Origin: Onthophagus taurus | Taxonomy: Eukaryota; Arthropoda; Insecta; Coleoptera; Scarabaeidae | Assembly: GCF_036711975.1 (NCBI RefSeq) | Contig: NC_091968.1 | Location: 27,327,001 to 27,391,000, forward strand | Length of the DNA: 64,000 bases | Reading direction: 5' to 3' | Part shown: positions 3,728-57,966 of the stretch, one piece after another | How positions within the stretch are numbered: position 1 is the first letter of the stretch | How the letters are laid out: every line of letters starts with the position of its first letter | Made by a program: the position numbers and the translations under genes | The notes under the pieces: generated by a model | What the model was told of the DNA's origin: nothing | The model's database searches: none | Seen by the model: only the letters and a program-made list of their open reading frames with translations

Positions 3728-3828
3728 TACCTCCTCGTAGTTTAACCCGTAACTACTTTTAAGTGTAACTACTTTTAACTGTTATTTAACCCGTAGTGAC
3801 AGTACAAGTGTAAAACTAGAACTAACAC

Positions 3829-18238: not shown

Positions 18239-18513
18239 TTTTTTAAGACTTAAAAAACAATTATAATCGGAATAATAAATAAATAATATCTTTATTGCGT
18301 TATTTTTTATTGCGATATCGCATTGTAATTGTATTCCAATAACTGTATTCAAAAATTGTATTTGATTTTTAAGTTATGTAAGAACTTTTTACAGTTTCTA
18401 GATCTCAATCAACATCTTTTCTATTACCTCTCTCTTCCATCACCCTTAACATTGCTGAACATCAACCTTAGTACTTGAAATCTCTTTTCCTACAGTTTTT
18501 ATTATTAAACATG

Positions 18514-19530
18514 CTAAAATAAGGTAACATCACATTTTTTGTAAAAAGTAAGCGATCGACTTTTGCACACGACGAGTCTTACACTGTCCAAAACTTTGGA
18601 TTTTGAGGAAGATGGAACACTGAGTTGTATACCGTTCAATACACCAATTTTTAAATATGTCATTGCGATCTGTCTCTCAAAATGTTTGATGGAAATTGAC
18701 TTTCCATGAATTCTTTTATACAGCCAGAATGAGTTTACAACAGCCATATCAATAATCCTTGTGACTAGACACCAGTACCATTTCTTACCCCTTATCGCTA
18801 TAGAAAGTTTTTCTAAGACCCAATCATGGTGGTCTACTCCAACCATGTATCGATTATAATAGTGAATCAGTCTTGGCTGAGCAACTTGCACTTGATTTGC
18901 GTTCTTTGCTCCATCTTGCAATTCATACTACTGGTTCTGCGGTATTAAAATTTGTGACCATAAAAACACATTTGTTATCATTTCATTCTACCAGCAATAT
19001 TTTGTTTTCGTTATCAAATCTATGATCATAGGATTCTCGAGGTAACCTTTCTAAGTCTTTGGTTGGTAGCAATGGATATTTTGCAGTCCTATTTTCTCTA
19101 ATAATATCTGTTGCACGTACTTGTATTTCTTTTAGCTAATGAAACAAGGCATGATTGCTAAAAAAATTATCAAACTATAAATACCAACTTTTTAGACCTT
19201 TTATAGCAATTTCAAAACAACTCTAGTGCCAAAAGGTTCCGATTGTCATCCGCTTTCCTTGCCAGTATAAGAAAAATTGAAGTAGTAATATCCATCTTCG
19301 CCACAAAGTGCCCAGAGTTTGTAACTAAATCATATTGGCAGTAGGGCTTGTACACGTTGCACGTAATATGGATGGAGTTGGTTGTGCGTCAATATTCGCC
19401 AAATTGTGATACCACATGTTGCTCTGCAAGTATCCTAGTACTTAGACCAAGCTGCTCTTCGTCGACATTCAAAATCTCCTCCTCGACATTAACTTAATTG
19501 CTCCTCCTTTCTGCCCATGCCTCGGTCAAA
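18514..19530 (-). pseudogene. piggyBac-like transposase relic, C-terminal half
   Basis: The open part 18514-18921 encodes the conserved piggyBac end: RLIHYYNRYMVGVDHHDW, then IAIRGKKWYWCLVTRIIDMA, then NSFWLYKRI. Further up the minus strand, broken frames near 19250-19340 encode the CGEDGYYY-like block seen in the plus-strand copy at ~11935. It is interrupted by stops and frameshifts. A matching leader fragment occurs at 20870-20985. Confidence 0.75.
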
Positions 19531-20985: not shown

Positions 20986-22770
20986 CGAATGTTACTAGTT
21001 CTAGGTCTAGTGTTAGTTCCAGTTTTACACTAGCACTGTTACTATGTAGAACTAATACTATACCTAGAACTAAAATCATTCGGGTTTAGCCGTCTTTAGA
21101 GACGTGCGGCTAAACCCGAATGATTCTAGTTCGAGATATAGTGTGAGTTCTAGTGATAGTGTAAGTGTAAAACTGAAACTATCACTATACCTAGAACTAG
21201 AATCATTCGGGTTTAGCCGTCTTTATAGACGTGCGGCTAAACCCGAACGATTCTAGTTTTAGGTATAGTGTGAGTTCTAGTGATAGTGTAAGTGTAAAAC
21301 TGAAACTAGCACTATACCTAGAACTAGAATTATTCGGGTTTAGCCGCACGTCTGTAAAGACGGCTAAACCCGAATGATTCTAGTTCTAGATATAGTGTGA
21401 GTTCTAGTGAAAGTGCAAGTGTGAAACTGAAACTAGCACTATACCTAGAACTAGAATCATTCGGGTTTAGCCGTCTTTAGAGACGTGCGGCTAAACCCAA
21501 ATGATTCTACTTCTAGGTATAGTGTGAGTTCTAGTGATAGTGTAAGTGTAAATCTGAAACTAGCACTATACCTAGAAGTAGAATCATTTGGGTTTAGCCG
21601 TCTTTACAGACGTGTGGCTAAACCCAAATGATTCTAGTTCTAGATATAGTGTGAGTTCTAGTGATAGTGTAAGTGTAAATCTGAAACTAGCACTATACCT
21701 AGAACTAGAATCATTTGGGTTTAGCCGCACGTCTCTAAAGACGGCTAAACCCGAATGATTTTAGTTCTAGGTATAGTGTTAGTTTTAGTGACAGTGCAAG
21801 TGTAAAACTACAACTAACACTATACCTTGCCGCACCTCTCTAAAGACGGCTAAACCCGAATGATTTTAGTTCTAGGTATAGTGTTAGTTTTAGTGACAGT
21901 GCAAGTGTAAAACTATAACTAAGTTATAGGTATAGTGTTAGTTTTAGTGACAGTGCAAGTGTAAAACTACAACTAACACTATACCTAGAACTAGAATCAT
22001 TCGGGTTTAGCCGTCTTTAGAGACGTGTGGCTAAACCCGAATGATTCTAGTTCTAGATATAGTGTGAGTTCTAGTGATAGCGCAAGTGTAAAACTGAAAC
22101 TAGCACTATACCTAGAACTAGAATCATTCGGGTTTAGCCGCACGTTTCTAAAGATGGCTAAACCCGAATGATTCTAGTTCTAGATATAGTGTGAGTTCTA
22201 GTGATAATGCAAGTGTGAAACTGAAACTAGCACTATACCTAGAACTAGAATCATTCGTGTTTAGCCGTCTTTAGAGACTAGCAGCTAAACCCGAACGATT
22301 CTAGTTCTAGGTATAGTGTTAGTTCTAGTGATAGCGCAAGTGTAAAACTGAAACTAGAATTAGAATCATTTGGGTTTAGCCGTCTTTAGAGACGTGCGGC
22401 TAAATCCAAATCTACCTAAGTGCCACTATCACTTGAACTAACACCAGACCTAGAACTAGAATCATTCGGGCTTAGCCGCACGTCTCTGAAGATGGCTAAA
22501 CCCGAATGGTTTTAGTTCTAGATATAGTGTTAGTTTTAGTGAGAGTGTAAATGTAAAACTACAACTAAGTTCTAGGTATAGTGTTAGTTTTAGTGACAGT
22601 ACAAGTGTAAAACTACAACTAACACTATACCTAGAACTAGAATCATTCGGGTTTAGCCGTCTTTAGAGACGTACGGCTAAACCTAAATGATTCTAGTTCT
22701 ACATAGGTATAGTGTTATTTCTACATAGTAACAATGCTAGTGTAAAACTAGCACTAACACGTGCGTTTTC
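20985..22770 (+). repeat. Palindromic ~128-bp satellite, array 6
   Basis: About 14 units, + orientation linkers, loops in both orientations. There are local tandem slips at 21830-21980 and 22500-22620, where partial units repeat. It ends ~60 bp from the 3' end of the minus-strand protease at 22832. Confidence 0.88.
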
Positions 22771-23939: not shown

Positions 23940-26900
23940 TCCTTGTACGTAAAAATCGATGGATATTTTTGAAAATGTGTCTAAATTCCTTAAGATTTTA
24001 AGAAATACCTAGTTGTGCATAAAAAATTTTGGAAATTGATTCAAAATCCCTAAATATGTTTGGAAATTCCTATAAAATCTCCTAAAAACTTGAAATTCTG
24101 TAGAAATTTCTGCAAAATCCTAGATAACCTCAGGTATTCTGAGAAATTTTTATGGTATACTTGAAAATCGGTTGAAATCTTTTGGAAATCTCCTGGAAAT
24201 ACTAAGAAATGCATACATAAGTGTCTGGGAGGAATTAAAAGTTCTGGACTCATTCAAAAACCTTGGATACACTGAAAAATCCTACGATATCCGTAAAAAT
24301 CGATGGATATGTTTAAAAATATGTCTAAATTCTTTAAGATTTTTAGAAATAAGTAGTTGTATATAAAAATTTTTGGAAATCGATTCAAAATCTCTAGATA
24401 TGTTTGGAAATTCTTAAAAAATTTTGTAAAAACTTGAAATTCTGAAGAAATTTCTGCAAAATCCTAGATAACCTCAGGTATTCTGAGAAATTTTTATGAT
24501 GTACTTGAAAATCGGTTGAAATCTTTTGGAAATCTCCTGGAAATACTAAGAAATGCATACATAAGTGTCTGGGAGGAATTAAAAGTTCTGGACGTTCGTA
24601 ATAATCCTTGGAAATCCTTCTAATTCTTTTAAAAGCTCATTCAAAAACCTTGGATACACTGAAAAATCCTAAGATATCCGTAAAAATCGATGGATATGCT
24701 TAAAAATGTGTCTAAATTCTTTAAGATTTTTGGAAATATCTAGTTGTATATAAAAATTTTTGGAAATCGATTCAAAATCCCTAGATATGTTTGGAAATTC
24801 TTATAAAATCTTCTAAAAACTTTAAATTCTGTAGAAATCTCTGCAAAATCCTACATAACCTTAGGTATTCTGAAAAATGTTTATGGTATACTTGAAAATC
24901 GGTTGAAATTTTTTGGAAATCTCCTGGAAATACTAAGAGATGCATACATAAGTGTCTGGGAGGAATTAAAAGTTTTGGACATTCGTAATAATCCTTGGAA
25001 ATCCTTCGAATTCTTTTAAAAACTCATTCTAAAACCTTGGATACACTGAAAAATCCTAAGATATCCGTAAAAATCGATGGATATGTTTAAAAATGTCTAA
25101 ATTCTTTAAGATTTTTAGAAATACCTAGTTGTATATAAAATTTTTTGGAAATCGTTTCAAAATCCCTAAATATGTTTGAAAATTCCTATATAATCTTCTA
25201 AACACTTGAAATTCTGTAGAAATTTCTGCAAAATCCTAGATAACCTTAGGTATTCTGAGAAATTTTTATGGTATACTTGAAAATCGGTTGAAATCTTTTG
25301 GAAATCTCCTGGATATACTAAGAGATGCATACATAAGTGTCTGGAAGGAATTAAAAGTTCTGGACGTTCGTAATAATCCTTGGAAATCCTTCTAATTCTT
25401 TTAAAAACTCATTCAAAAACGTTGGATACACTGAAAAATCCTAAAATATCCGGAAAAATCGATGGATATGTTTAAAAATGTGTCTAAATTCTTTAAGATT
25501 TTTAGAAATAAGTAGTTGTATATAAAAATTTTTGGAAATCGTTTCAAAATCCCTAGATATGTTTGGAAATTCCTAAAAAATTTTCTAAAAACTTGAAATA
25601 CTGTAGAAATTTCTGCAAAATCCTAGATAACCTTAGGTATTCTGAGGAATTTTTAATGGTGTACTTGAAAATCGGTTGAAATTTTTTGGAAATCTCCTGG
25701 AAATACTAAGAAATGCATACATAAGTGTATGGGAGGAATTAAAAGTTCTTGACTCATTCAAAAACCTTGGATACACTGAAAAATCCTAAGATATCCGTAA
25801 AAATCGATGGATATGTTTAAAAATGTCTAAATTCTTTAAGATTTTGAGAAATATCTAGTTGTATATAAAAATTTTTGGAAATCGATTCAAAATCCCTAGA
25901 TATGTTTGGAAATTCCTATAAAATCTTCTAAAAACTTGAAATTCTGTAGAAATTTCTGCAAAATCCTAGATAACCTTAGGTATTCTGAGAAATTTTTATG
26001 GTATACTTGAAAATCGGTTGAAATCTTTTGGAAATCTCCTGGAAATACTAAGAAATGCATACATAAGTGTATGGGAGGAATTAAAAGTTCTTGACTCATT
26101 CAAAAACCTTGGATACACTGAAAAATCCTAAGATATCCGTAAAAATCGATGGATATGTTTAAAAATGTCTAAATTCTTTAAGATTTTGAGAAATATCTAG
26201 TTGTATATAAAAATTTTTGGAAATCGATTCAAAATCCCTAGATATGTTTGGAAATTCCTATAAAATCTTCTAAAAACTTGAAATTCTGTAGAAATTTCTG
26301 CAAAATCCTAGATAACCTCAGGTATTCTGAGAAACTTTTATGGTATACTTGAAAATCGGTTGAAATCTTTTGGAAATCTCCTGGAAATACTAAGAAATGC
26401 ATACATAAGTGTATGGGAGGAATTAAAAGTTCTTGACTCATTCAAAAACCTTGGATACACTGAAAAATCCTAAGATATCCGTAAAAATCGATGGATATGT
26501 TTAAAAATGTCTAAATTCTTTAAGATTTTGAGAAATATCTAGTTGTATATAAAAATTTTTGGAAATCGATTCAAAATCCCTAGATATGTTTGGAAATTCC
26601 TATATAATCTTCTAAACACTTGAAATTCTGTAGAAATTTCTGCAAAATCCTAGATAACCTTAGGTATTCTGAGAAATTTTTATGGTATACTTGAAAATCG
26701 GTTGAAATCTTTTGGAAATCTCCTGGAAATACTAAGAAATGCATACATAAGTGTATGGGAGGAATTAAAAGTTCTTGACTCATTCAAAAACCTTGGATAC
26801 ACTGAAAAATCCTAAGATATCCGTAAAAATCGATGGATATGTTTAAAAATGTCTAAATTCTTTAAGATTTTGAGAAATATCTAGTTGTATATAAAAATTT

Positions 26901-29900
26901 TTGGAAATCGAGTCAAAATCCCTAGATATGTTTGGAAATTCCTATAAAATCTTCTAAAAACTTGAAATTCTGTAGAAATTTCTGCAAAATCCTAGATAAC
27001 CTTAGGTATTCTGAGAAATTTTTATGGTATACTTGAAAATCGGTTGAATTCTTTTGGAAATCTCCTGGAAATACTAAGAGATGCATACATAAGTGTGTGG
27101 GAGGAATTAAAAGTTCTGGACATTCGTAATAATCCTTGGAAATCCTTCTAATTCTTTTAAAACTCATTCAAAAACCTTGGATACACTGATAAATCCTAAA
27201 ATATCCGTAAAAATCGATGGATATGTTTAAAAATGTCTAAATTCTTTAAGATTTTTAGAAATACCTAGTTGTATATAAAATTTTTTAGAAATCGTTTCAA
27301 AATCCCTAAATACGTTTGAAAATTCCTATATAATCTTCTAAACACTTGAAATTCTGTAGAAATTTCTGCAAAATCCTAGATAACCTCAGGTATTCTGAGA
27401 AATTTTTATGGTATACTTGAAAATCGGTTGAAATTTTTTGGAAATCTCCTGGAAATACTAAGAAATGCATACATAAGTGTCTGGGAGGAATTAAAAGTTC
27501 TGGGCATTCGTAATAATCCTTGGAAATCCTTCTAATTCTTTTAAAAGCTCATTCAAAAACCTTGGATACACTGAAAAATCCTAAGATATCCGTAAAAATC
27601 GATGGATATGCTTAAAAATGTGTCTAAATTCTTTAAGATTTTTAGAAATACCTAGTTGTATATAAAAATTTTTGGAAATCGAGTCAAAATCCCTAGATAT
27701 GTTTGAAAATTCATATAAAATCTTCTAAAAACTTGAAATTCTGTAGAAATCTCTGCAAAAGCCTAGATAACCTCAGGTATTCTGAGAAATTTTTATGGTA
27801 TACTTGAAAATCGGTTGAAATTTTTTGGAAATCTCCTGGAAATACTAAGAAATGCATACATAAGTGTCTGGGAGGAATTAAAAGTTCTGGGCATTCGTAA
27901 TAATCCTTGGAAATCCTTCTAATTCTTTTAAAAACTCATTCAAAAACCTTGGATACACTGAAAAATCCTAAGATATCCGTAAAAATCGATGGATATGTTT
28001 AAAAATGTCTAAATTCTTTAAGATTTTTAGAAATAAGTAGTTGTATATAAAAATTTTTGGAAATCGATTCAAAATCTCTAGATATGTTTGGAAATTCTTA
28101 TAAAATTTTCTAAAAGCTTGAAATTCTGTAGAAATTTCTGCAAAATCCTAGATAACCTTAGGTATTCTGAGGAATTTTTAATGGTGTACTTGAAAATCGG
28201 TTGAAATTTTTTGGAAATCTCCTGGATATACTAAGAGATGCATACATAAGTGTCTGGGAGGAATTAAAAGTTCTGGACATTCGTAATAATCCTTGGAAAT
28301 CCTTCTAATTCTTTTAAAAACTCATTCAAAAACCGTGGATTCACTGAAAAATCCTAAGATATCCGTAAAAATCGATGGATATGTTTAAAAATGTGTCTAA
28401 ATTCTTTAAGATATTAAGAAATGAGTAGTTGTATATAAAAATTTTTGGAAATTGTTTCAAAATCCCTAGATATGTTTGAAAATTCCTATAACATTTCCTA
28501 AAAACTTGAGATTTTGTAGAAATCTCTGCAAAATCCTAGATAACCTTAGGTATTCTGAGAAATTTTTATGGTATACTTGAAAATCGGTTGAAATTTTTTG
28601 GAAATCTAGAAATACTAGGAAATGTATACATAAGTGTCTGGGAGGAATTAAAAGTTCTGGACATTCGTAATAATCCTTGGAAATCCTTCTAATTCTTTTA
28701 AAAACTCATTCAAAAACCTTAGATACACTGATAAATCCTAAGATATCCGTAAAAATCAATGGATATGTTTAAAAATGTGTCTAAATTCTTTAAGATTTTT
28801 AGAAATAAGTAGTTGTATATAAAAATTTTTGGAAATCGATTCAAAATCCCTAGATATGTTTGGAAATTATTATAAAATTTTCTAAAAACTTGAAATTCTG
28901 TAGAAATTTCTGCAAAATCCTAGATAACCTTAGGTATTCTGAGAAATTTTTATGGTATACTTGAAAATCGGTTGAAATTTTTTGGAAATCTCCTGGAAAT
29001 ACTAAGAAATGCATATAAATATCTGGGAGGAATTAAAAGTTCTGGACGTTCGTAATAATCCTTGGAAATCCTTCTAATTCTTTTAAAAACTCATTCAAAA
29101 ACCTTAGATACACTGATAAATCCTAAGATATCCGTAAAAATCAATGGATATGTTTAAAAATGTGTCTAAATTCTTTAAGATTTTTAGAAATAAGTAGTTG
29201 TATATAAAAATTTTTGGAAATCGATTCAAAATCCCTAGATATGTTTGGAAATTATTATAAAATTTTCTAAAAACTTGAAATTCTGTAGAAATTTCTGCAA
29301 AATCCTAGATAACCTTAGGTATTCTGAGAAATTTTTATGGTATACTTGAAAATCGGTTGAAATCTTTTTGAAATCTCCTGGAAATACTAAGAAATGCATA
29401 CATAAGTGGCTGTGAAGAATTAAAAGTTCTGGACATTCGTAATAATCATTGGATATCCTTGGAAAACCTTCTAATTTTTTTAAAAACTCATTCAAAAACC
29501 TTGGATACATTCAAAAATCCTAAGAAATTCGTAAATAGCAGTGGATATTCCTTGAAATCTCTAGAAATACTTGTTTATCATTGAAAATTTTAGAAAATTG
29601 CTACAAAATCATTGGATGTATTTGGAAATTTTCATAAAACCTTTTTAAAACCTGAATATCTATAGAAATCTTTGGAAAATAGTTGAATTCCTCAAAAATA
29701 CTGAGAAATTCGGATGGTATCTTTGAAAATGTTATGGGAATACTTGGAAATAATTATATGAATCTTTAAGAATCGTTAAAATCCTAAATATTATTAATGG
29801 ATTTCCTTTTTTCTTGGATATTCTTGGAAATTCGTACAATTTCTGTAAAAATCCTTTAAAAGCTTTCGATTCACTCAGAAATAACAGGATGTCTCTAAAT

Positions 29901-35059: not shown

Positions 35060-36377
35060 TACTGTTGGAAATAATTCACGAGCACACCCTATATAATCTG
35101 AACGCGTGAAGATAAATCCATAATATTTGCGGAGCACAAAGGTTTACTGTAGACGAGTTTAATGAGGGAGTTTCGAGTTGTTCCGTCGCGGCATTGTTGA
35201 CTGAGCCGCCGTTCCAAGTGGAACATTCCGTCGCTATGGAGACCGAAGTGGATGGAAAATACCGGTCGTTTTTAGTGTGGTGTGAGGGACCATATTGTTA
35301 TCGTACTCTGTGCGCAATGGATGGGCGATCGCGTTACTTAAGCGAGTTTGAGCGAGGAATGTTTGTGGGTATGCACATTGAGGGTGTATCGTTCTGTGAA
35401 ATTGCACGTCGTTTGGAGCGGTCGTTATCGGCAGTGCAACGGGCATGGCGAGAATGGTCTGAGGTAAAACATAGGTACCTCCAGCCGCGGCCGGGACGGC
35501 CCTGCGCGTCCCCAGCACACGAGGATCGCGCTCTTGTGCTCAGTGCTTTAGCGTCGTGTGTGTCCTCCTCAAGGCAACTTGAAGCTATTTGGCCACCGGC
35601 AGGGGAAGGCGCACTCACTACACGAACTGTACGGCAGCGTTTGGTAGATAGTGGACTGCGCGCGCGTCGTGCGATACAGCGGATTCCAGTAACACCCGAG
35701 CACCGCAGCATACGTCACAGGTGGGTCGACGCTAGGCATTAGTAGGTTGTCGAGTAGAGGGACATTTTGTTTTCCGACGAATCAAGATTCGAATTGAGCA
35801 CCGGTGATGCGCGAATTTTAGTTCATCGGAGCCATGGTGATCGTCTACTCGAGCAGTGTGTGCAAGAACGCCCTATCCACCGACAACCGAGCATTATGGT
35901 ATGGTCTGTTATAGGGTCTGCTATACATGCACGACAACGTACGACAACACATCGGGCGTGTTGTACAGACTTTTGTGGAAGAGCACCGTATACCAATGCT
36001 TCCATGACTAGCTCGGTTTCCGCATCTAAATCCAATAAAACATGTGTGGGAAATGACTGGTCGGAGACTTCTACATTATCCGGCTTCCTCGGCTAACGTT
36101 GAGGAGCTATGGAGGCGAGTTGAGGTGGCATGGTTGGCCATCCCTCTTGCTACAATACAGCGACTTATAGACTCCATGCCACGTCGTGTAGCGATAGTAC
36201 GCGAAGCTCACGGGGGATACTCTCGCTATTGATGTTTCTCCTCCCAGCAGAGTTGTGCTGCTCTCCATGTGAGAGTAAGTTACACTACTTTAGTACTACT
36301 TCCATACCAAATTTTATTGCGCTAGACACACGCGTTCAGATTATACAGGGTGTGCTCGTGAATTATTTCCAACAGTG
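35060..36377 (+). mobile_element. Tc1/mariner-family transposon, inactive
   Basis: The 1318-bp element has inverted ends of ~50 bp (actgttggaaataattcacg ... cacaccctgtataatctgaa) flanked by TA (35058-35059 and 36378-36379). The plus strand encodes a paired-type helix-turn-helix region (LSEFERGMFVGMHIEGVSFC, 35330-35500) and, after a stop, LFSDESRFELS (first catalytic Asp). A second block, DNVRQHIGRVVQTFVEEHRI, has the second Asp. The third block reads HLNPIKHVWE where families have Asp, and is preceded by a stop. The transposase is therefore broken. The element is inserted into a CpG-rich inverted repeat, whose halves lie on both sides. Confidence 0.85.
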
Positions 36378-39050: not shown

Positions 39051-41860
39051 GTTGAGATATGTCGGAGACCACGCCAAGGATTGTCAGACACAACATTGTA
39101 TTGCTATTAAGATATTGAGAGTGTTAAGGGTTATTAAAGACGGAATTGTATACAACCGAGGATGATTTTGAGAGATGCCAGGAATGATAGTTTATGATGA
39201 GATGGATGAATAATGTTGAGGAATGTCCGCGATGATGTCAAAGATGGTCAGAAACAACATTGTATTGCTATGAAGATATTAAGAGTGTCTAGATTAATAC
39301 AAGGATGTTCACAGTGATGTTAAGGGTTATTAAAGACGGATTTATATACAACCGAGGATGATTTTGAGAGATCCCAGGAATGATAATTTACGATGAGATG
39401 GATGAATAATGTTGAGGAATGTCCGCGATGATGTCAAAGATGGTCAGAAACAACATTGTATTGCTATGAAGATATTAAGAGTGTCTAGATTAATACAAGG
39501 ATGTTCACAGTGATGTTAAGGGTTATTAAAAACGGAATTGTATACAACCGAGGATGATTTTGAGAGATGCCAGGAATGATAAGTTATGATGAGATGGATG
39601 AATAATGTTGAGGAATGTCCGCGATGATGTCAAAGATGGTCAGAAACAACATTGTATTGCTATGAAGATATTAAGAGTGTCTAGATTAAAACAAGGATGT
39701 TCACAGTGATGTTAAGGGTTATTAAAGACGGAATTGTATACAACCAAGGATGATTTTGGGAGATGCCAGGAATAATAATTTATGATGAGATGGATGAATA
39801 ATGTTGAGGAATGTCCGCGATGATGTCAAAGATGGTCAGAAACAACATTGTATTGCTATGAAGATATTAAGAGTGTCTAGATTAATACAAGGATGTTCAC
39901 AGTGATGTTAAGGGTTATTAAAAACGGAATTGTATACAACCGAGGATGATTTTGAGAGATGCCAGGAATGATAAGTTATGATGAGATGGATGAATAATGT
40001 TGAGGAATGTCCGCGATGATGTCAAAGATGGTCAGAAACAACATTGTATTGCTATGAAGATATTGAGAGTGTCTAGATTGATACAAAGATGTTCACAGTG
40101 ATGTTAAGGGTTATTAAAGACGGAATTGTATACAACCGAGGATGATTTTGAGAGATGCCAGGAATGATAATTTATGATGATATGGATGAATAATGTTGAG
40201 GAATGTCCGCGATGATGTCAAAGATGGTCAGAAACAACATTGTATTGCTATGAAGATATTGAGAGTGTCTAGATTGCTACAAAGATGTCCACAGTGATGT
40301 TAAGGATTATTAAAGACGGAATTGTATACAACCGAGGATGATTTTGAGAGATGCCAGGAATGATAATTTATGATGAGATGGATGAATAATGTTGAGGAAT
40401 GTCCGCGATGATGTCAAAGATGGTCAGAAACAACATTGTATTGCTATGAAGATATTAAGAGTGTCTAGATTAATACAAGGATGTTCACAGTGATGTTAAG
40501 GGTTATTAAAGATGGAATTGTATACAACCGAGGATGATTTTGAGAGATGACAGTAATGATAATTTATGATGAGATGGATGAATAATGTTGAGGAATGTCC
40601 GCGATGATGTCAAAGATGGTCAGAAACAACATTGTATTGCTATGAAGATATTAAGAGTGTCTAGATTAATACAAGGATGTTTACACTGATGTTAAGGGTT
40701 ATTAAAAACGGAATTGTATGCAACCGAGGATGATTTTGAGTGATTCCAGGAATGATAATTTACGATGAAATGGATGAATAATGTTGAGGAATGTCCGCGA
40801 TGATGTCAAAGATGATCAGAAACAACATTGTATTGCTATGAAGATATTAAGAGTGTCTAGATTAATACAAGGATGTTTACAGTGATGTTAAGGGTTATTA
40901 AAAACGGAATTGTATGCAACCGATAATGATTTTGAGTGATTTCAGGAATGATAATTTACGATGAAATGGATGAATAATGTTGAGGAATGTCCGCGATGAT
41001 GTCAAAGATGGTCAGAAACAACATTGTATTGCTATGAAGATATTAAGAGTGTCTAGATTAATACAAGGATGTTTACAGTGATGTTAAGGGTTATTAAAAA
41101 CGGAATTGTATGCAACCGAGGATGATTTTGAGAGATGCCAGGAATGATAATTTATGATGAGATGGATGAATAATGTTTAGGAATGTCCGCGATGATGTCA
41201 AAGATGGTCAAAAACAACATTGTATTGTTATGAAGATATTGAGAGTGTCTAGATTAATACAAGGATATTTACAGTAATGTTAAGGGTTATTAAAAACGGA
41301 ATTGTATACAACAGAGGATGATTTTGAGAGATGCCAGGAATGATAATTTACGATGAGATGGATGAATAATGTTGAGGAATGTCCGCGATGATGTCAAAGA
41401 TGGTCAGAAACAACATTGTATTGCTATGAAGAAATTAAGAGTGTCTAGATTAATACAAGGATGTTTACAGTGATGTTAAAAGTTATTAAAAACGGAATTG
41501 TATGCAACCGACGATGATTTTGAGAGATGCCAGGAAGGATAATTTATGATGAGATGGATGAATAATGTTGAGGAATGTCCGCGATGATGTCAAAGATGGT
41601 CAGAAACAACATTGTATTGCTATGAAGAAATTAAGAGTGTCTAGATTAATACAAGGATGTTTACAGTGATGTTAAAAGTTATTAAAAACGGAATTGTATG
41701 CAACCGACGATGATTTTGAGAGATGCTAGGAAGGATAACTTAGGATGAGATGGATGAATAATGTTGAGGAATGTCCGCGATGATGTCAAAGGTGGTCAGA
41801 AACAACATTGTGTAATATTCGGGGTGTCTAAATTGATGTAAGGATGTCCTCGATTATACC
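39050..41860. repeat. 196-bp tandem array
   Basis: The marker gaatgtccgcgatgatgtca recurs at 39221, 39417, 39613, 39809 and onward every ~196 bp to about 41770, roughly 14 copies. Copies are very similar to each other. Blocks at 39240-39900 alternate small variants (gacgg/aacgg, tatacaacc/tatgcaacc). No coding potential is evident. Confidence 0.92.
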
Positions 41861-46473: not shown

Positions 46474-48420
46474 ATGAAAAACCTCAATATAGGAGGTAAA
46501 TTGGTGATTCTTTTAGTTTTATTTTATGAAGTGGAAAATAATATTTATCAAAACGATCGAAATCATGAAAATGACCCAAATTACGATTATAATCCAGGAA
46601 ATAATGTTGATCAGAACTATGACAATCAAGAAAATTCTAACAAAAGCAATTATAGCGAAGAAAATCCTAATCTAAGTGATTACAACGAAGAAAATCTTAA
46701 TTTGAGTGATTACAAGAAAGAAAATTTATATGAAAGTGACAGCAACGAAGAAAATTCTATTGAAAGCGATTATAACGAAGAAAATTTTAATGAAGAAAGC
46801 GATTACGGCAAAGAAAATCCAAATGTGAGTGATTACAACGAAGAAAATTCTAATGAAAGCGATTATGGCAAAGAAAATCCTAATGTGAGTGATTACAACG
46901 AAGAAAATTCTAATGAAAGCGATTATGGCAAAGAAAATCCTAATGTGAGTGATTACAACGAAGAAAATTCTAATGAAAGCGATTATGGCAAAGAAAATCC
47001 AAATGTGAGTGATTACAACGAAGAAAATTCTAATGAAATCGATTATGGCAAAGAAAATCCTAATGTGAGTGATTACAACGAAGAAAATTCTAATAAAATC
47101 GATTTTGGCAAAGAAAATCCAAATGTAAGTGATTACAACGAAGAAAATTCTAATGAAAGCGATTATGGCAAAGAAAATCCTAATGTGAGTGATTACAACG
47201 ATGAAAATTCTTATGAAAGTGACAATGACGAAGAAAATTTTAATGAAAACAATATCAACCAAGAAAATTCTTATGAAGGTGATTACGGCAAAGAAAATCC
47301 TAACGTGAGCGATTACAATGAAGAAAATTTTAATGAAGAAAGCGATTACGGCAAAGAAAATCCAAATGTGAGTGATTACAACGAAGAAAATTCTAATGAA
47401 AGCGATTATGGCAAAGAAAATCCTAATGTGAGTGATTACAACGAAGAAAATTCTTATGAAAGTGACAACAATGAAGAAAATTCTAATGAAAGCGATTACG
47501 GCAAAGAAAATCCAAATGTGAGTGATTACAACGAAGAAAATTTTAATGAAATCGATTATGGCAAAGAAAATCCTGAAAATTCTTATGAAAGTGACAACAA
47601 CGAAGAAAATATCAACCAAGAAAATTCTTATGAAGGTGATTACGACGAAGAAAATGCTTATGAAAATAATTACAACAATGAAAACTCTGATGAATATGAA
47701 ACTGAAGAAATTAATTATTATCCATTTATAGCAAGTATACGATTAGGAGCCCTTCATTATTGTTCGGGTTCAATAATTACCCCAATGTTTATTTTAACCT
47801 CAGCGTTTTGTTGTTATGCAAACGATGGGAAATTGTTGCCAAAGCATCAAATGCTGGTTTACGTTGGTAGTATGTCATTAAAAAATTCGCAAGTTTACCC
47901 AATTTATGAAATCCACATCCATCCATCTTACAACCTTTTGGATCAACAAGGAAACGTGGCTTTATTACAAATGGATATTCCGATTCCCCCACTAGAATCA
48001 TCAAAATCGATCATATTAAATCAAAATTATTACAACGTCGATTTGTTTAAGATTGAACCGGTCGCGATTGGTTGGAGTACGATAAGTCCTAAAGGAAAAT
48101 TTTCCACGCAGGAAATTTCTGATGATTTAGCCGCGATTTCTTTAGCTTCTGTTAGTTCGACGGTTTGTAGCGTGGTTTATAATAGGATTTATCCGGAGGA
48201 ATTTTGTATGATCGATGAGAAATTTCGCGAAAACTTTTATGGTTGTGCCTTAGATTTTGGGGCGCCTTTATTTATGCAAAGTAATGGAAAATATATTCTA
48301 ATCGGAATCGCTTCTTACATTAGCGATTGCAAAACGCAAATTCCGACTGTTTTTACAAGAATTTCAACTAATTATCCGTGGATTAAGTCAACGATTGATT
48401 TGGCAAGAAAAAATTTATAA
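46474..48420 (+). CDS. Acidic-repeat protein with a catalytically dead S1A domain
   Basis: 648 aa, single exon. Residues 1-23 form a signal peptide (KLVILLVLFYEVE). Residues ~25-410 are low-complexity and very acidic, built on a 20-residue unit of the form YGKENPNVSDYNEENSNESD. GKENP occurs 12 times, and the DNA repeat is exactly 60 bp in the tandem part. Residues ~415-648 form an S1A fold domain: CSGSIITPMFILTSAFC at the His site, GNVALL at the Asp site, CALDFGAPL at the Ser site, and PTVFTRI near the end. His57, Asp102 and Ser195 are replaced by Phe, Asn and Phe, and there is no activation site. It cannot be a serine protease; it may be a binding or structural secreted protein. The minus strand is open only because of the repeat. 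Confidence 0.88.
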   Translation: MKNLNIGGKLVILLVLFYEVENNIYQNDRNHENDPNYDYNPGNNVDQNYDNQENSNKSNYSEENPNLSDYNEENLNLSDYKKENLYESDSNEENSIESDYNEENFNEESDYGKENPNVSDYNEENSNESDYGKENPNVSDYNEENSNESDYGKENPNVSDYNEENSNESDYGKENPNVSDYNEENSNEIDYGKENPNVSDYNEENSNKIDFGKENPNVSDYNEENSNESDYGKENPNVSDYNDENSYESDNDEENFNENNINQENSYEGDYGKENPNVSDYNEENFNEESDYGKENPNVSDYNEENSNESDYGKENPNVSDYNEENSYESDNNEENSNESDYGKENPNVSDYNEENFNEIDYGKENPENSYESDNNEENINQENSYEGDYDEENAYENNYNNENSDEYETEEINYYPFIASIRLGALHYCSGSIITPMFILTSAFCCYANDGKLLPKHQMLVYVGSMSLKNSQVYPIYEIHIHPSYNLLDQQGNVALLQMDIPIPPLESSKSIILNQNYYNVDLFKIEPVAIGWSTISPKGKFSTQEISDDLAAISLASVSSTVCSVVYNRIYPEEFCMIDEKFRENFYGCALDFGAPLFMQSNGKYILIGIASYISDCKTQIPTVFTRISTNYPWIKSTIDLARKNL

Positions 48421-48523: not shown

Positions 48524-49437
48524 ATGTACTCAAAACGATTTTTTTATTTTATTTTTATTTTTTCGTGCATGGGTAAGTTTTTGATTTTGAAATGAATGTT
48601 TTTATTTCGAATTTTTTTGATTTAGTTTTTCGATCGGATCAGAAAAAATTAACTCGAATGGTCGGCGGGCAATTAGTTAAAGAAAATGAGTATCCTTTCG
48701 TGGCAAGTATCCAGCACGATAACAAACACATTTGCACCGGTTCTATAATTGGTTCAAAAGCAATTTTAACAGCGGCGAGCTGCTTTTATTTGAACGATAC
48801 TACCAAAATTTCGACGTATACGCTTATGGTTTCCGGAGGAAGCTCGTTTTGGAGGTACGGAGATAAATACGAAGTTGATAGATTAATTATTCATCCTCAA
48901 TTTGATTATGAAACTAAAATTAACGATATAGCAATTATAAAAATTTCAAAAACAATTTCGCTGATTTCTTCGGTTATTATTAAACTTTTATCGACCCAAA
49001 TTCCTGATAATCAAACAGTTGTGGATGGTTTAACTTTCGGTTGGGGACATTCCATATATTCCGGACATTCAATAGAATCGCCATCAGAACAATTAAATTC
49101 TTTAAAAACAAAAACTGTCCCAGCGAGAGTTTGTTTATTAGAATACCAAACTTTTGGGGAAAACCAAATTTGTTTGGCAAGTACAGAGGGTAAAGGGATA
49201 TGCCACGGTGATGTTGGGGGGCCCTTAATTATCCAACCATCAGCAATTTTTTTACAAATCGGTATTAGTTCTTATGGTGGCGCTTGTAATTCAACCAAAC
49301 CTGAAGTATATACGAGAATATCATCTTATCATGATTGGATCGATATCGTTCTTAAAAAAGGATTAGATAACAGCGAAGAAATTAAACTACCAACACAAGA
49401 TAAAAAGAAAAAAAGGCGAAAAAATAACAAATACTAA
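48524..49437 (+). CDS. Secreted serine protease homologue lacking His57 and Ser195
   Basis: Exon 1 is 48524-48572 (MYSKRFFYFIFIFSCM). A 53-bp phase-1 intron (48573-48625) leads to exon 2 (48626-49437), giving 286 aa. The activation-type site LTR|MVGG is kept. The catalytic sites read TAASC (His to Ser), INDIAI (Asp kept) and GDVGGPL (Ser to Val). The rest of the fold is intact, including Glu226 (KPEVYTRI), a CNST sequon and the disulfide cysteines. A ~25-residue Lys-rich tail (DKKKKRRKNNK) follows the last helix. This is a pseudoprotease that could still bind ligands. Confidence 0.88.
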
Positions 49438-49591: not shown

Positions 49592-52500
49592 ATGAAAATC
49601 TTCAATTTGTTGTTAATCTTTGTTCTTTGTACAATAATTCCTGGTAAGATTCATTCGTTTTTATATCAATAGTACGATTAGGGTTTTTAAAATTAAGCCG
49701 AGGCATTAGAATTGAAACCATATTCCCATAAAGCTAAGCCAAAGTCGCTTGCGGCCGAGTTAACACCATAATGACAAAATATTATATAATGTACACCTTC
49801 TCTATAAAGTTAAGCCGAGGTCGCTTGCGGCCGAGGCACTAGAGTTTACACCATATTGACATAATTTGATACAATATACACCATCACTATAAAGTTAAGG
49901 CGAGGTCGCTTGCAACCGAGGCATTAAGGTTAACACCATAACGACAAAATATTATACAATGTACACCTTCTCTATAAAGTTAAGCCGAGGTCGCTTGCGG
50001 CCGAGGCATTAAAATTAAACGATATTGATGCAATATTATACAACACACACATTTCCTATAAAGCTAAGTCGAGGCAGCTTGCAGCCGACGCATTAAGATT
50101 AACACCATAATGACACAATATTATACAGAGTGAGTTATTATTAGTGATAGTAAACTATCACTATGTTTGAAAAACAAAAAAATATTTTATACAAAAGTTG
50201 TTTGACTCATCACTTTCTATTACGTCAAATTATTTTCACTTATACAGGATGTTCCATTTAAGCGTAACGGAGAGTACGTAAATTTATTTAAATGGAACAC
50301 CCTGTATATTTTATCATATGAATACAATTAAATTTGTTTATATAACCGTGTATGTTACCAATACCCAGCGTTTATAGTTCGTGAGATATTCAATTGTTCT
50401 TCCAAAATGTGCCCATTACAGGATTTTTTTAAAAACGATGTAAAAACGACATTTTTTCCGAATTTACCTTGAAACTACCTCAGACAGTAGTCAAAGCCAG
50501 TAGATAGATCATAATGTTCAAAGATATTAGATACACTATACAGGTTGTTTAAAAAGCTCGGTTACTTTTGATGTTTTTTAAATGGAACATCCTATATATT
50601 GCGTGCTTGTTGAATTACTCATCAAGTTCCCTTTAATTAATGATAAGTATGTCATATATCTAACTTTAATAGTTTTCCTGATATTTAGAATTTAAAGAAA
50701 AAGGTGTAATAAAATGTCATTATTGTACTTAAAAAAGTGACAGAATGTAATATATTCTGTTCTTTTTCTATCACTTTTTTTTTGTTTTTCTGTCATTTGT
50801 AAATCAGTAATATTATATTAAAATACAATTAAAAAAAAACTTTAATAAATAAATAATCAAAACGTGATAAAAATACAAAAAATACTATTAAATGGCAGAA
50901 CAATAAATCCCTTTTTTAATTACTAAAATATTTGAAGGAAATGCAGCAACAAACTATAAACAATTACTAGACGTTGCTCAATAAGTAGATATTAATTTAA
51001 TTAATATTTAGAAGTTGTTCAAAATGCCGCCCATTTTCTCTTCTATAAGCATTAATGCGCTGTCTAAAAGATTTTGAGGTATTTCTTAACATGTGCAACT
51101 TATTTACTCTAAAGTCATAAATTATATGGCAGAACAATTGCAATGTAACATGCTTTTTAAATCTCATAAAGTACCAAGTCGCATTAAAATCTGGTATATG
51201 ACAACAAAATCATTTTACATTATAAAATATTAATCAAATAATAAAAAGAAAAACAAAAAAAAATAGACAGAATAATAATATTAAGTACAATAACGCATAT
51301 TTTATTATACATTATTCTTTAAATTGTAAATATATCATTAATTAAAGGTAACTTGATGGGCAATTCAATCAGCACATAATATACAGGTGGTTCCATTTCA
51401 AAAACTTATGAAAAAGTCATTTGAAAAACATCAAAAGTAACTAAGCTTTATGAACACGCTGTATAACATATCTAATATCTTTGGATACTATCATTTATCT
51501 ACTGGCTTTGACTATTATCTGACATAGTTTCAAAGCAAAATTACAAAAAAATGTCGTTTTTACATCGTTTTTAAAAAGATTCTGCAGTGGACACATTTTG
51601 GAAAAATAATTGAATATCTCAGGAACTAAGAACGCTATGATTTAGTAATATATACGGTTGTATAATAGTATATTATTCAACAAGCGTATAATGGCGGCTG
51701 TTACCCACGAAGATGAAGTTGCGACACAAGCGAGTGAAGCGAACGAGTGTTGTAATCTGAGTGGGTAACATCCATTACACGCAAGTTGAATACTATACTT
51801 TATCTACAACTACTTAATTTTGAAAAAAAAATCAAAAAAAAGGAAAAAAAATAAACTTGACAGACATTTCAGACATAACCTCAATATAAGAAAGCTGTCA
51901 TTTCTGTTAAAATTTAATTTTTTGATTAGTAGGCCGTGTCAGAACTGTGAAATAATGGCTTCATTATTCAACACTTTGTCAGTCATGAGTAATAGGTGTC
52001 ATTACCCATCAAAAATCAAATGTATAACGAATAGATAATTCAATAGTTGTAGATAATACTATATTATTCAACAAGCGTATAATCTGAGCGATAAATCTGA
52101 GTGGGTAACATCCATTATACGCAAGTTGAATACTATACTTTATCTACAACTATTTAATTTTGAAAAGAAAATCAAAAAATAGGAAAAAAAATAAACTTGA
52201 CAGACATTTCAGACATAACCTCAATATAAGAAAGCTGTCATTTCTGTTAATATTTTATTTTTTGTTTAGTAGGCCGTGTCAGAACTGTGGAATAATGGCT
52301 TCATTATTCAACACTTTGTCAGTCATGGGTAATGCGTGTCATTACTCGTCAAAAATCAATTGTATAACGAATAGATAATTCAATAGTTGTAGATAAACAA
52401 ATTTAATGCTATTCATAATATGATAAAATATACAGTGTTCCATTTAAAAAAATCTACATACTTTCCGGTACGCCTAAATGGAACATCCTGTATGAGTGAA

Positions 52501-55500
52501 AATAATTTTACGTAATAGAAAGTGGTGAGTTAAACAACTTTTGTATAAAACATTTTTTTTCTTTCTCAAACGGTTTAACAACTATCGTCCACCGGGATAT
52601 TAATAACTCACCCTGTATAATATACATCTTCTCTATAAACTTAAGTCGAGGTTGCTTTCGGCCGAGGTATTAAAGTTAACACAATAATGTCACAATATAC
52701 ACCTTCTCTATAACGTTAATCCGAGGACGCTTGCGGCTGAGGCATTAGAGTTAATACCATTTTGGAACCTCGGCTATTATTTAATATTGTATCTCTTTGA
52801 AGTAAATTGTAATGCCTCGCCCGCAAGCGACCTCGGCTTATGTTTATAGGAAACGTGTGTGTTGTATAATATCGTATCGATAAGGTTCCAACTTTAATGC
52901 CTCGGCCGCAAGCGACCTCGGCTTAACTTTATTCGAAAGGTATACATTACATTACATTACATTACATAGAATACATATCGGGTAGGCGGACCAACCAACC
53001 TTGCACCGCGACCCTAAGGATCTATTGTACCCCGATAGATATCATTATCAAATTTCACCGTGCAGTCCAATGCTCTTAACGAACATTAATACCTTGCCCG
53101 GCGAAAGGTCATTCAGATCTTTTGAGGAGATAAACTGCAACCCAAAAATCGAGAATCTGATACGGTTAACGGCAGGGCAGTGGCATAAAACATGCTCAAC
53201 CGTCTCTGCTTCCTCCGCACATAGTCGGCATTCAACATCGTCGGCTAAACCCAACAAGTTGAGGTGTGCTTTTAATCGGCAGTGCCCAGTAAAAACACCC
53301 ATTAGAACTTTTATGCTACTAAGGGCAAGTCCCAAAATATTCCCGGGTTTGACAGTGGCGATGTTGATAAACACCTTAGCATGTCTCATTCCAGGAGAAC
53401 TGGTCCACAGTAGGCGAAGTCTCTCTTCAGCCCACAGTCCAATCCTATATTTGGCCATCGCAAATGATACACCAACTGCTGGTTCCGGTCCCACAAACGC
53501 TTCAGCGCTGCCATCTCGTGCTAGCTTATCTGCCGCTTCATTGCCAGCAACACCAGAGTGACCCGGGACCCAGATCAGAGAGACTCTGTTATCACAACTC
53601 AGTGTGTTTAATGTTCTCTTACAATCATTAACCAGAGCCGACACCGTTTTCACGGCTTGCAGCGCCTGGAGAGCGGCTTGACTGTCTGAGAAGATTCGTA
53701 CTGTCATGTTCTTCACCCCTCTTTCAAGAAGGATTTTAGCACCCATGTCAATAGCAAATACTTCCGCCTGGAATACAGTACAGTACGTACCCAGGCTGTA
53801 GGCTTGCTTAATTCGAGGTGTCTGGCAGTATACTCCTGCTCCTACCCCTTCAGGCGTTTTTGATCCATCTGTGTACAAGCAAATGTCTGTCCGAACCAGA
53901 GAATTTTCATTTTCGATCCAGGACTGCCGCTCAGGCAGTACAATCTGGTATCGAGCATTAATCACTGATAGTGATACCGCCAAATCTGACGGCATTGATA
54001 GCACAGTATCAGTGCTTATAATGTCTTCCGCAGCCTATTGGTAGGACATGTCGGAACAGTTTTGAGCATATTGCTTAAATCTGTAAATGGTTGTTCTAGC
54101 CACTTTCTCTATATGCAAATGCAGAGGAGATAGGCCAAGCAGAACCTCCATTGCTAGAGTTGGCGTTGTGCCTGTCGCACCAGAGATTGCCAATCCAGCT
54201 ACTCGTTGAATTCGTGAAAGTTTACTGATAGCTGAAGTCTGTCGGACTTTCCTATACCAGGCTGCTGCTCCGTATGTGATCATAGGTCTAACCACAGTCA
54301 CATAGAGCCAGTACAGTCTTTCAGGGGTAAGACCCCAACTTTTTCCACAAAGACTACGACAAGTCCACAAGGATAGTCTAGCTTTGTGCAAAACTCCCTC
54401 CAAATGTCCATTCCATGACAGGGTTTTGTCTAGGATTACTCCTAGATATTTGACTTCCTTTGAGAAAGGAATTTCTTCACCTTGGATAGTTGGGCGGATT
54501 AGTCCATTCAACTTTCGCTTCCTGGTGAAGGGCACAACAATTGTCTTTTGCGGGTTTATTGAGAGATTCTCTCCCTTACACCAAGCGCAAATGGTATCTA
54601 GGGTCACCTGGAGGACTTTAGATATCCTCGGCAAACAGGTTCCTTTGACCATAACGACAATGTCATCAACATAAGCTTGTATTTCCACACCAACGGCTTC
54701 GACTATCGCAATCAGATCGTCAACTAGGAGGGACCAAACCAGGGGAGATAACACCCCTCCCTGCGGGCAGCCACCTCCCGGCCTGAAGCGTATCGTATCA
54801 CCGTGGAGTGAAGTAGAAACTATTCTACTATCTAGCATATTGCGGATCCAACCCGCTATAGTTGCTTCCACTCCCCTGTCAAGGGCGGCTCTTTCAAGAG
54901 ATTGTGGTATTGCGTTGTTGAACGCTCCCTCTATATCCAGAAACGCACAAACCAAGATTTCTTTATCCTGCAGCGTCCTGGATACTCTACCAACTAAGTT
55001 GTGTAGAGCCAATTCTGCTGATTTTCCCGCTTGATAAGCATACTGGTGGCGACTCAGTGGACCAGATACCAATGGCACCGTACGGATATACCGTTCCAGA
55101 ACTTTTTCAAGGGTTTTCAGCAGAAATGACGTTAGGCTGATGGGTCGAAAGGCATTAGGAGTAGGGACCGAACGGCCCGCTTTGGGTAAGATACCCGTAC
55201 CTTAGTCCATTCTGCCGGCACATATTTCCAGGCGACACTCGCTCTGAAAATTTTTACCAAAATTGGCAACAACAAAGACCTCCCCTGCTGTAACAAAGCA
55301 GGAAAGATATTGTCTTCTCCAGGCGATTTGAACGGCTTAAACGTTTGAATTGCCTGGTCCACGGATGTGTAAGTAACGACTTTTCTAGCCACACTCCAAT
55401 CCGTATTTGAGGGGCGCTTTGCCATGCAGGAATAGCCCGCTGTGGCATTATCGGCCCTCATCATCAGGCTTCCTGGGAAGTGAGTCTGCATGAGAAGCTC

Positions 55501-57034
55501 CAACGAGGCTCTGCTAGAGTCCGTAAAACGAAAGGTATATGTTGTACTATGTTATATCAATATTGTGTCAACTCTAGTGCCTCGGCCGCAAGCGACCTCG
55601 GCTTAATTTTATTCGTAAGGTTTATGTTGTACTATATTATATCAATATTGTGTCAACTCTAATAGATCGGTCGCTAACGACCGCGGCTGTTATTTAATAT
55701 TGCATCTATTTGGTATAAATAGTAGCGCCTCGCTCGCAAGTGACCTTGGGTTAACTTTATGGGAATGATATATGCTGTATAATTTTGTGTTATTATAATA
55801 TGAAAATTTTCAATGATTAAATATAATACACATAAAATATAAATGTTTTCTTTTTATTATAGAAAGTCACGAAAAATTAAAGAGGAATAATGGAAAATCC
55901 ATCCAAAAACAAATTTCAAACTCAACAATCGAAGAAAACGAGAAGACACAAAGAAAAATAAACGAATCTAAAACAGATACGAATATAACAAATTCCAAGA
56001 AAGTTATTGGTAAATCGAAAGGTAAAATTAAAAAGCAAGCCGGAAAGAGTGTATTAAAAGATAAAAAACATATTTACAAATCGTCACCGAGAAAAAATCA
56101 AGGGAAAAGCTCAAAAAAAAAGATGCAACCTAAGTCAATGAATAGCACGAAAAATCAAGAAAAAAATCAAATACCAAAATCAGCATCAAAGAAATTACAC
56201 CAACCCAAACAAAATCAACCTTCTAAATTACGCCAGAAGAAAACCGTTTCAAAATCAAATAAAAAAACTAAATCCAAAAAGAATTTAGCAAAATCAAATT
56301 TACGATCGAAATTACCAAATAAATCTAAACCACAAGGGATAATGATAACGGAATCGGTTTTATTGCCATCGTTAGCGAGTATAACTTATATTGGAATTCA
56401 TATTTGTTCGGGAACGATCTTAACAGATCGATTTATTTTAACGGTGGCTCATTGCGCTTACGATGGTCTTCATGAAATCCTCCCAAAAGAAAACATGAAA
56501 ATAGTCCTTGGGAAAACCTCCACTGAAAACGGAACAATTTATGATATTCAAGGTTTAATAATTCATGAAAATTTTGATAACCTCACTTACGCCAACGATA
56601 TTGGTTTAATAAGAACGTTAAATTCGATTATTTTTGGTAAAAATGTTGCGCCTATGGTGTTAAGAAAAAAAGCTGTTATAGATAAAAGTTTTAATGATAA
56701 CGCAACGGTTTCTTGGTTTGGATTTAATACATCTGAAATGAATTCGAGCGATGAAACTTTTCTTATAGCTAATGTTCGTTCGATTCCAATCGATGTGTGT
56801 AGAAACACGTTTGTCGCGGTCAGTTTAAGACATATTTGTATGAGTAGTGTTGCGACTGATGGTAATTGTAATGAAGATTCAGGGGGGCCGTTAGTTATTG
56901 GAAGTTATGGTAAAATTGAACAAATTGGAATTTTATCTTTCAGTATAAATTGCGGAATTAATAAACCCGAAGTTTATACAAGAATTTCTTGGTATTTTGA
57001 ATGGATAAAAAAAGTTATGGAGAGAGTGAAATAA
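49592..57034 (+). CDS. Lysine-rich secreted protease homologue with 6.2-kb intron
   Basis: Exon 1 (49592-49643) encodes the signal peptide MKIFNLLLIFVLCTIIP. The GT at 49644 joins an AG at 55861-55862 in phase 1. Exon 2 (55863-57034) continues the same frame, giving 407 aa. Residues ~18-175 are a Lys/Ser/Asn/Gln-rich leader (KKTKSKKNLAKSNLRSK and similar). The S1A domain keeps His (TVAHC), Asp (ANDIGL) and Ser (EDSGGPL). The oxyanion-hole Gly193 is Glu, and the activation site is replaced by QGIMITES with no Arg before it, so activity is doubtful. Glu226 is kept. The intron is filled with repeats, a foldback element and a LINE. The gene ends 11 bp from the convergent gene at 57046. Confidence 0.85.
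49690..50110 (+). repeat. CpG-rich ~85-bp repeats in the intron (left block)
   Basis: Five copies of a core reading gccgaggtcgcttgcggccg, spaced 75-90 bp, separated by AT-rich sequence with caccttctctataaagttaa. They have the opposite orientation to the array at 59870-60740. Confidence 0.8.
50126..52615. mobile_element. Large foldback (inverted-arm) element in the intron
   Basis: The ends are cagagtgagttattattag and, inverted, ttaataactcaccctg, with TA on both sides. The left arm (50126-50850) is matched in reverse by parts of the right arm (51300-51680 and 52400-52615), including an embedded small hairpin (tacaggatgttccatttaag) on each side. The right arm is split by two ~390-bp direct repeats (51670-52400). 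The two similar 72-codon frames within them are repeat-derived. No transposase is seen. Confidence 0.7.
52620..52930. repeat. CpG-rich repeats, orientation switch
   Basis: Two or three copies face as in 49690-50110, then two copies (52810 and 52900) are inverted. The last copy is interrupted by the LINE insertion and resumes at 55540. Confidence 0.7.
52945..55528 (-). mobile_element. 5'-truncated I/R1-superfamily LINE with reverse transcriptase and RNase H
   Basis: The element is flanked by an 11-bp direct repeat, cgaaaggtata (52934-52944 and 55529-55539), a target-site duplication. The minus strand reads: a segment before the palm (FKPFKSPGEDNIFPALLQQG, 55132-55503); the reverse transcriptase (CAFLDIEGAFNNA, GCPQGGVLSPLVWSLLVDDL, AYVDDIVV) at 54035-55078; then RNase H (LYTDGSKTPEGVGAGVY, FSDSQAALQ, WVPGHSGVAGNEAADKLA) and a terminal Cys/His cluster at 53048-54004. 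A frameshift near 55197 and an in-frame TAG at 54035 interrupt it. The 3' tail is a pentamer repeat (ttaca)n at 52945-52966. It lies antisense in the intron of the gene at 49592. Confidence 0.88.
55570..55760 (-). repeat. CpG-rich repeats, right of the LINE
   Basis: Three copies of the gcctcggccgcaagcgacct core, the last two diverged, continue the block interrupted by the LINE. Confidence 0.75.
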
Positions 57035-57045
57035 ATCCAAAAATA

Positions 57046-57966
57046 TTAACGCCAATTTATTTTATTATTAATTATAAAAAGTGTATAAAATGTTAAGTAA
57101 AAGAATAAATAAAACGTTGAAATCTTTCTAGCGCCACCATTACGTCTATGTAAAGGTTGAATCGTCGGAATCCGATGATTAACATTAACTAAAAACGCGT
57201 ATTTAGCATCTTTACATTTACTTAAATTCCACAAAACTATTCCCATTAAATGAGATTGATAAACTCCAATTGCTCCGAAAACATTCTTACAATTACTATT
57301 ATTAACCATCCAATTATTAACGCAAATGTAGTCGTCACTTTTATTTAAATCTACACCTTGTTTATCAAACAAATCTCGACACATTTCTCTTTCAGAATAA
57401 ACCACGTGGCCACAAATCAAATTAAAAATTGTCGCATCTATTTTCGTTACATTCAAACTTGTCGTTATATTTAAATCTTTATTTTTCACTCTCAACGTTC
57501 TTTTATTCAAAATCGGTACAAATCCCAAAACGTCGATAAAAACGGACTCTTTTCTTTTGGCGATTTGAAGGAACTCGATATCGTTCATAATCGGCAATGA
57601 TTTCGTCTTTAACGTCATCCTTAACGTTAACTCTAACAAGCATATCTCGAGTTTGTTCATTTCGACTTGGTTTTTTAACCGGACATCTGAAACGTGTTCG
57701 ATTTCTTGTTCCCAATTCGACATTTTCAAATCGAAACCGGCGAAAACGGTGATGTTTATCGCGTTTTCGCAACAATATCCCGCTGTTATTATGTAATCGG
57801 TACTCATTATCGCTCCGGTACAATATCTGGTGGTGATATTTGTTGTTGTTACAACCAAAGTTGTTGATGCCAAATGTTCAGCGTCGCAACCGGTATATTC
57901 TTTGTGGTATTCGGCGGATTCTTTAGAAAACGTTGATAAAATAATAAAAATTAATGTCAATTTCAT
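57046..57966 (-). CDS. Diverged secreted S1A homologue with hydrophobic C-terminus
   Basis: 306 aa. The signal peptide is MKLTLIFIILSTFSKESA. The fold is recognisable from YCTGAIMSTDYIITAGYCC (His site changed to Tyr), KLEICLLEL (Asp site changed to Glu) and CKNVFGAIGVY (Ser loop lost). There is no activation motif. It has many N-glycosylation sequons (NIT, NTS-like, NNS, NLS). The last ~33 residues hold a hydrophobic segment (FYLFFYLTFYTLFII) after RRNGGAR, which could be a membrane anchor or a GPI signal; the polar ending INNKINWR is less typical of GPI. It is convergent with the gene ending at 57034. Confidence 0.75.
   Translation of the reverse strand: MKLTLIFIILSTFSKESAEYHKEYTGCDAEHLASTTLVVTTTNITTRYCTGAIMSTDYIITAGYCCENAINITVFAGFDLKMSNWEQEIEHVSDVRLKNQVEMNKLEICLLELTLRMTLKTKSLPIMNDIEFLQIAKRKESVFIDVLGFVPILNKRTLRVKNKDLNITTSLNVTKIDATIFNLICGHVVYSEREMCRDLFDKQGVDLNKSDDYICVNNWMVNNSNCKNVFGAIGVYQSHLMGIVLWNLSKCKDAKYAFLVNVNHRIPTIQPLHRRNGGARKISTFYLFFYLTFYTLFIINNKINWR

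Follow-up and report, generated by a model that had tools for sequence, protein, structure and literature searches.

Serglycin packs cationic serine proteases in mast-cell granules; its Ser-Gly repeats bear glycosaminoglycans, and it lacks a protease fold. In a beetle, Tenebrio molitor, 125 of 269 S1A proteins are SPHs; according to the sections of that survey drawn on here, most of them are predicted to be secreted and anionic, 102 lack any regulatory region in the propeptide, 21 of the remaining 23 carry clip domains, and Asp102 is substituted in only 13 (PMC11172050).

Here, we describe a gene for a 648-aa protein in a window of 64,000 nucleotides of Onthophagus taurus DNA (the whole stretch that was analysed), in which a long acidic repeat tail is predicted to be joined to a dead S1A fold. 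This architecture, as read from the predicted protein, is well supported. O. taurus is a laboratory model whose genome and RNA-seq data have been published. The features of the gene and of its downstream neighbours are collected in Table 1.

Table 1. Features of the 648-aa gene and its downstream neighbours; positions are those of the window.
Feature	Position	Strand	Basis
Open frame, 648 codons, ATG to stop, single exon as read	46474..48420	+	
Predicted signal peptide, MKNLNIGGKLVILLVLFYEVEN	46474..46539	+	hydropathy; end inferred
Polyanionic Asn/Glu/Ser/Tyr/Asp-rich repeat region, 12 GKENP units	46546..47703	+	
S1A (trypsin-like) fold, triad replaced	47704..48417	+	
His57 position, TTT (Phe), F445	47806..47808	+	alignment to paralogs
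Asp102 position, AAC (Asn), N494	47953..47955	+	alignment to paralogs
Asp194, kept	48253-48255	+	
Ser195 position, TTT (Phe), F595	48256..48258	+	alignment to paralogs
AATAAA, possible polyadenylation signal just 3' of the stop codon	48433..48438	+	
Neighbouring dead S1A gene, 286 aa, predicted exons 48524-48572 and 48626-49437	48524..49437	+	
Polybasic sibling, 407 aa, predicted exons 49592-49643 and 55863-57034	49592..57034	+	
Further dead S1A frame	57046..57966	-	Pfam E 1.7e-8; alignment

The S1A part is recognised by Pfam Trypsin (PF00089) at residues 412-637 with an E of 1.2e-19, above the curated cut-off, which bears out the fold that the earlier note had read there. That note had also taken all three catalytic residues as replaced and the activation site as missing, and both readings hold in the alignment to paralogs: the triad reads Phe, Asn and Phe, and neither the R-I-x-G motif nor any R/K followed by an I-V-G-G type N-terminus is present before the domain, which is directly preceded by ETEEINYYPF. 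The protein thus has an S1A fold with at least one triad residue replaced, as an SPH does, and lacks the triad and the activation site of an active S1A protease. It retains the fold and the Cys pattern at only 21-31% identity to its siblings. The 7 Cys of the protein all lie at residues 430-619, within the domain; six correspond to the three usual S1A disulfides and one is extra. No clip domain was matched by Pfam up to an E of 1, and a search of NCBIfam gave 0 matches. AF2, run on the full-length protein without an alignment, returned a pLDDT of 33.6, too low to be informative.

The protein had further been called secreted. What stands of this is a predicted signal peptide, suggested by hydropathy, from which secretion itself would follow: the signal core has a best 9-residue hydropathy of 3.29, where six siblings have 2.34-3.16 and the polybasic sibling 3.32, and a search upstream for a signal exon of similar quality reached no more than 1.79.

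The tail spans about 390 residues and is as acidic as first described, residues 25-415 having a net charge of -104 and consisting of Asn (25.8%), Glu (20.7%), Ser (11.5%), Tyr (10.5%) and Asp (10.2%) in the main. The count of twelve GKENP units ahead of the S1A domain is exact, whereas the claim of a perfectly 60-bp repeat has to be given up. TRF finds a 30-bp period (30.8 copies at 46628-47558, 69% matches) as well as a 60-bp period (13.5 copies at 46649-47462, 85% matches); the underlying repeat is one of 10 residues (30 bp), and pairs of it form the 60-bp unit, which is mostly imperfect. Between successive GKENP units, 51 to 60 of 60 bases agree, with only one of 10 comparisons perfect (11 of the 12 units were compared, the 12th, at residue 360, being dropped as a truncated unit). 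Two stretches in the tail DNA recur letter for letter, one of 135 bp 543 bp away and one of 119 bp 60 bp away; together with the near-identical units, these repeats are consistent with recent duplication, as the earlier note had supposed. A protein search of the own genome, in which 107 of 152 candidates were scored, gave a single match for the tail repeat. A hit of DUF1942 on the repeat, with an E of 0.0044, is below the family cut-off and was set aside as a composition effect, and a reverse 297-aa frame over the repeat, 46726-47619 (-), was taken as its mirror image.

N-X-S/T sequons number 21 in residues 25-415 and 0 in the S1A domain. In 2000 shuffles of residues 25-415 the mean was 10.9 (sd 2.7) and the maximum 21; the high frequency arises partly because N and S are common in the tail. 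NVS stands directly after GKENP in 11 of the 12 units, and the other sequon type, NES, occurs only 6 times.

Whether the tail sequence appears constrained depends on how its units are picked. With units picked by peptide motif (n = 11), pN is 0.039 and pS 0.183 over 55 non-independent pairs, and 7 of 14 distinct changes are silent where 2.3-3.5 are expected (P 0.002-0.025); this comparison is biased towards silent changes because the units were selected by their peptide. With units picked by DNA similarity alone, silent changes are 3 of 9, 8 of 22, 11 of 37 and 11 of 41 distinct changes at four thresholds, and the silent excess has a P of 0.012 to 0.39 over 12 settings (the four thresholds times three transition weights). 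Because of this range we make no claim of clear purifying selection; constraint on the tail is possible, the signal being weak with the DNA-picked units.

The gene is one of 17 S1A genes clustered within about 95 kb of contig C3 (C3:27298838-27393365), a count made of 16 S1A matches of the genome search and the further dead frame of Table 1, which came from the frame list and was confirmed by Pfam. Triad residues are replaced in 4 of the 17: the 648-aa gene; its immediate neighbour, with His57 to Ser, Ser195 to Val, Asp102 kept and a basic C-tail; the further dead frame, with His57 to Tyr, Asp102 to Glu and Ser195 to Phe; and L018, just upstream of the window, whose product is identical to the chymotrypsin-2-like protein P0002 of O. 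taurus (287 aa). Another upstream gene, L014, encodes the O. taurus protein P0001 except at 2 of 250 residues. Both the further dead frame and the 648-aa gene have Phe-Gly-Ala where active members have Ser195-Gly-Gly, through either shared ancestry or convergence. On a tree of 24 rows, which comprises 23 of the 30 S1A loci and the further dead frame (L020, L021, L025, L027, L028, L030 and L031, being partial or with stops, were left out of alignment and tree), the dead label requires 4 changes (bootstrap 3-4) against 3.8 with shuffled labels. Separate origins of the dead siblings are not supported by this, since the changes are no more than with shuffled labels and a single origin is compatible with the well-supported branches. 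Many cluster members have Gly instead of Asp at position 189 of the alignment; they are thus probably not trypsin-like in specificity.

Between the S1A genes, a satellite-like unit of ~127 bp forms dispersed arrays (3794-5428, 7764-9563, 12128-12991, 14363-15008, 16155-16728 and 21050-22357), and further long tandem arrays are present at 23948-29535 and 39122-41811, their units measuring about 340-390 bp and 196 bp. The transposable-element frames in the window are two reverse transcriptases, a DDE_Tnp_1_7 piece and a Tc3-type transposase piece, at 1205-2314 (-), 54035-55078 (-), 18514-18921 (-) and 35194-35742 (+).

The polybasic sibling is the second gene downstream of the 648-aa gene and starts 1.2 kb away. 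Its first predicted exon encodes a predicted signal peptide, and its 6219-bp intron contains tandem repeats and a reverse-transcriptase frame. Its predicted Lys-rich extension of 158 residues has 49 basic and 9 acidic residues, a net charge of +40; this extension, too, has a single match in the genome (protein search; 24 of 24 candidates scored), and a match to Ndc1_Nup, below the family cut-off, was set aside as a composition effect. In the alignment, the S1A domain of the sibling keeps the triad, has Gly193 changed to Glu and shows no canonical activation site. Among the 56 S1A matches listed, the longest stop-to-stop frames are those of the 648-aa gene (665) and of this sibling (405).

We tentatively propose that the 648-aa protein is a secreted, non-catalytic SPH whose disordered polyanionic tail binds cationic partners, possibly its siblings. 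With the triad replaced and no activation site, the S1A head would be non-catalytic and may serve as a specific docking site, while the tail, disordered and glycosylated once the protein is secreted, would act as a flexible polyanion for multiple binding of cationic proteins or ions. The likeliest partners would be cationic proteins of the same secretion, with the Lys-rich sibling as the prime candidate; the protein may thus be a scaffold or regulator, not an enzyme, its tail having presumably grown via duplication of the 30/60-bp units. The intact frame, the signal peptide, the AATAAA, the kept fold and the confinement of sequons to the tail argue for this proposal, as do the polybasic sibling nearby and the six cluster domains of 17 that are cationic (net charge +5 to +10). 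Most siblings are not obvious partners, because the other 11 domains are neutral to anionic (-1 to -12). The weak signal of constraint on the tail and the partly compositional frequency of its sequons also speak against the proposal, as does the lack of similarity between the tails of the two charged siblings, whose nearness among 17 genes is not improbable. If the proposal is right, a digestive-type protease gene has turned into one for a possible scaffold or structural protein by losing catalysis and growing a charged repeat, with a sibling of opposite charge alongside. A bolder form of it, which we consider improbable, is that the polyanionic dead protease and the polybasic, probably non-activatable one arose as adjacent copies of a single S1A gene and became an oppositely charged pair, the tails of which would associate with one another in a secretion of the beetle as an electrostatic complex or coacervate. 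Were the pair real, both halves of an adhesive or packaging material would have been made from protease folds.

It is likewise quite possible that the gene is a dead S1A copy from a cluster in rapid change and that replication slippage or unequal exchange expanded its acidic propeptide, the tail being a tolerated spacer with no charge-dependent role. The three longest end branches of the tree (9.69, 3 and 2.73, against a median of 1.21) indeed all belong to dead members, the fourth of which has 1.38, and the near-identical units, the long exact repeats and the lack of a clear silent excess among DNA-picked units fit such an expansion. A possible starting point is at hand in the intact S1A gene at 17333-18352 (-), which carries a short acidic propeptide, IEDDDPDLQSNQENVEEEL, before its domain, possibly the precursor type of the long acidic tail. 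A mere spacer is harder to reconcile with a frame that stays open from end to end of the repeat, where every one of the 15 units in the loosest DNA-picked set is in one frame, and with the retention of the S1A fold and Cys pattern. The acidic, Tyr-rich and repetitive composition would also suit a tail that buffers calcium or another cation, or that forms part of the matrix in a secreted coat (egg, brood-ball, glue or mating secretion), with the S1A head only as its anchor; no calcium-binding family was matched in the protein, Trypsin being the only Pfam family above the cut-off, and we regard this role as rather unlikely.

Non-catalytic insect SPHs have been published in immune roles, and the protein might likewise be a cofactor of a hemolymph protease cascade, like the clip-domain SPHs in melanization (PMC6901238, PMC10540698, in the parts drawn on here). 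This role appears doubtful, since the protein has no matched clip domain and no canonical cleavage site before its S1A domain, while clip SPHs need cleavage according to the part of PMC6901238 consulted. The gene model itself could mislead if the mature mRNA spliced out the repeat, so that the 648-aa protein was not made. In a scan by simple motifs rather than a trained model, the frame has 6 acceptor-like sites (Y-AG, 11 or more pyrimidines out of 17); the donor-like site at 46496 can be joined in frame to 5 of these, the first being 47731 with 1236 nt removed, and 10 GTRAGT donor-like motifs lie inside the repeat. Joining from 46496 would, however, also remove the core of the signal peptide together with the beginning, or more, of the S1A domain, and in the same scan none of the 10 repeat motifs is in frame with any of the 6 acceptor-like sites, which makes such splicing very improbable; from a donor-like site at 47870, in-frame joins lead to 3 sites within the S1A domain.

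Among the 91 S1A proteins in an alignment search, the best two are from O. taurus and match paralogs outside the window. Protein database searches, restricted to proteins of similar total length, gave 0 of 821 candidates at E <= 0.001 with the S1A domain and 0 of 7988 scored candidates at E <= 0.01 with the repeat, the query itself being absent in both; because of this restriction and the absence of the window's proteins, these negatives say nothing firm on orthologs. In the parts drawn on here of a paper on male reproductive genes of another dung beetle (PMC8382682), trypsin or chymotrypsin does not occur. In the literature searched, mostly papers free of subscription, no fully dead S1A domain joined to a long polyanionic repeat was seen.

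Against the known systems, the locus compares as follows. Tequila, a mosaic insect S1A protease, also has low-complexity repeats joined to an S1A domain, but in the sections of its description drawn on here the repeats are of uncharged residues and are accompanied by chitin-binding, SRCR and LDLr-type domains, whereas one polyanionic repeat and a dead domain are found here (PMC1761132). The T. molitor SPHs resemble the 648-aa protein in their S1A fold and replaced triad; in the portions of the survey used, none is described with a long acidic repeat (PMC11172050). The earlier note had called the architecture unusual, which holds for the polyanionic tail with its single genome match and not for the dead S1A domain, which by the same portions of the survey is routine in beetles (PMC11172050). 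The sequons, the S1A cluster with its other dead members and the polybasic sibling go beyond that note. The likeness to serglycin would be that of a polyanion co-secreted with cationic S1A proteins, provided that the 648-aa protein is secreted; the difference is that its charge sits in the peptide, on a protein of the S1A fold itself. The 648-aa gene thus belongs to the SPH kind, in which a dead S1A domain is already ordinary for beetles, and its new part is the long polyanionic repeat tail.
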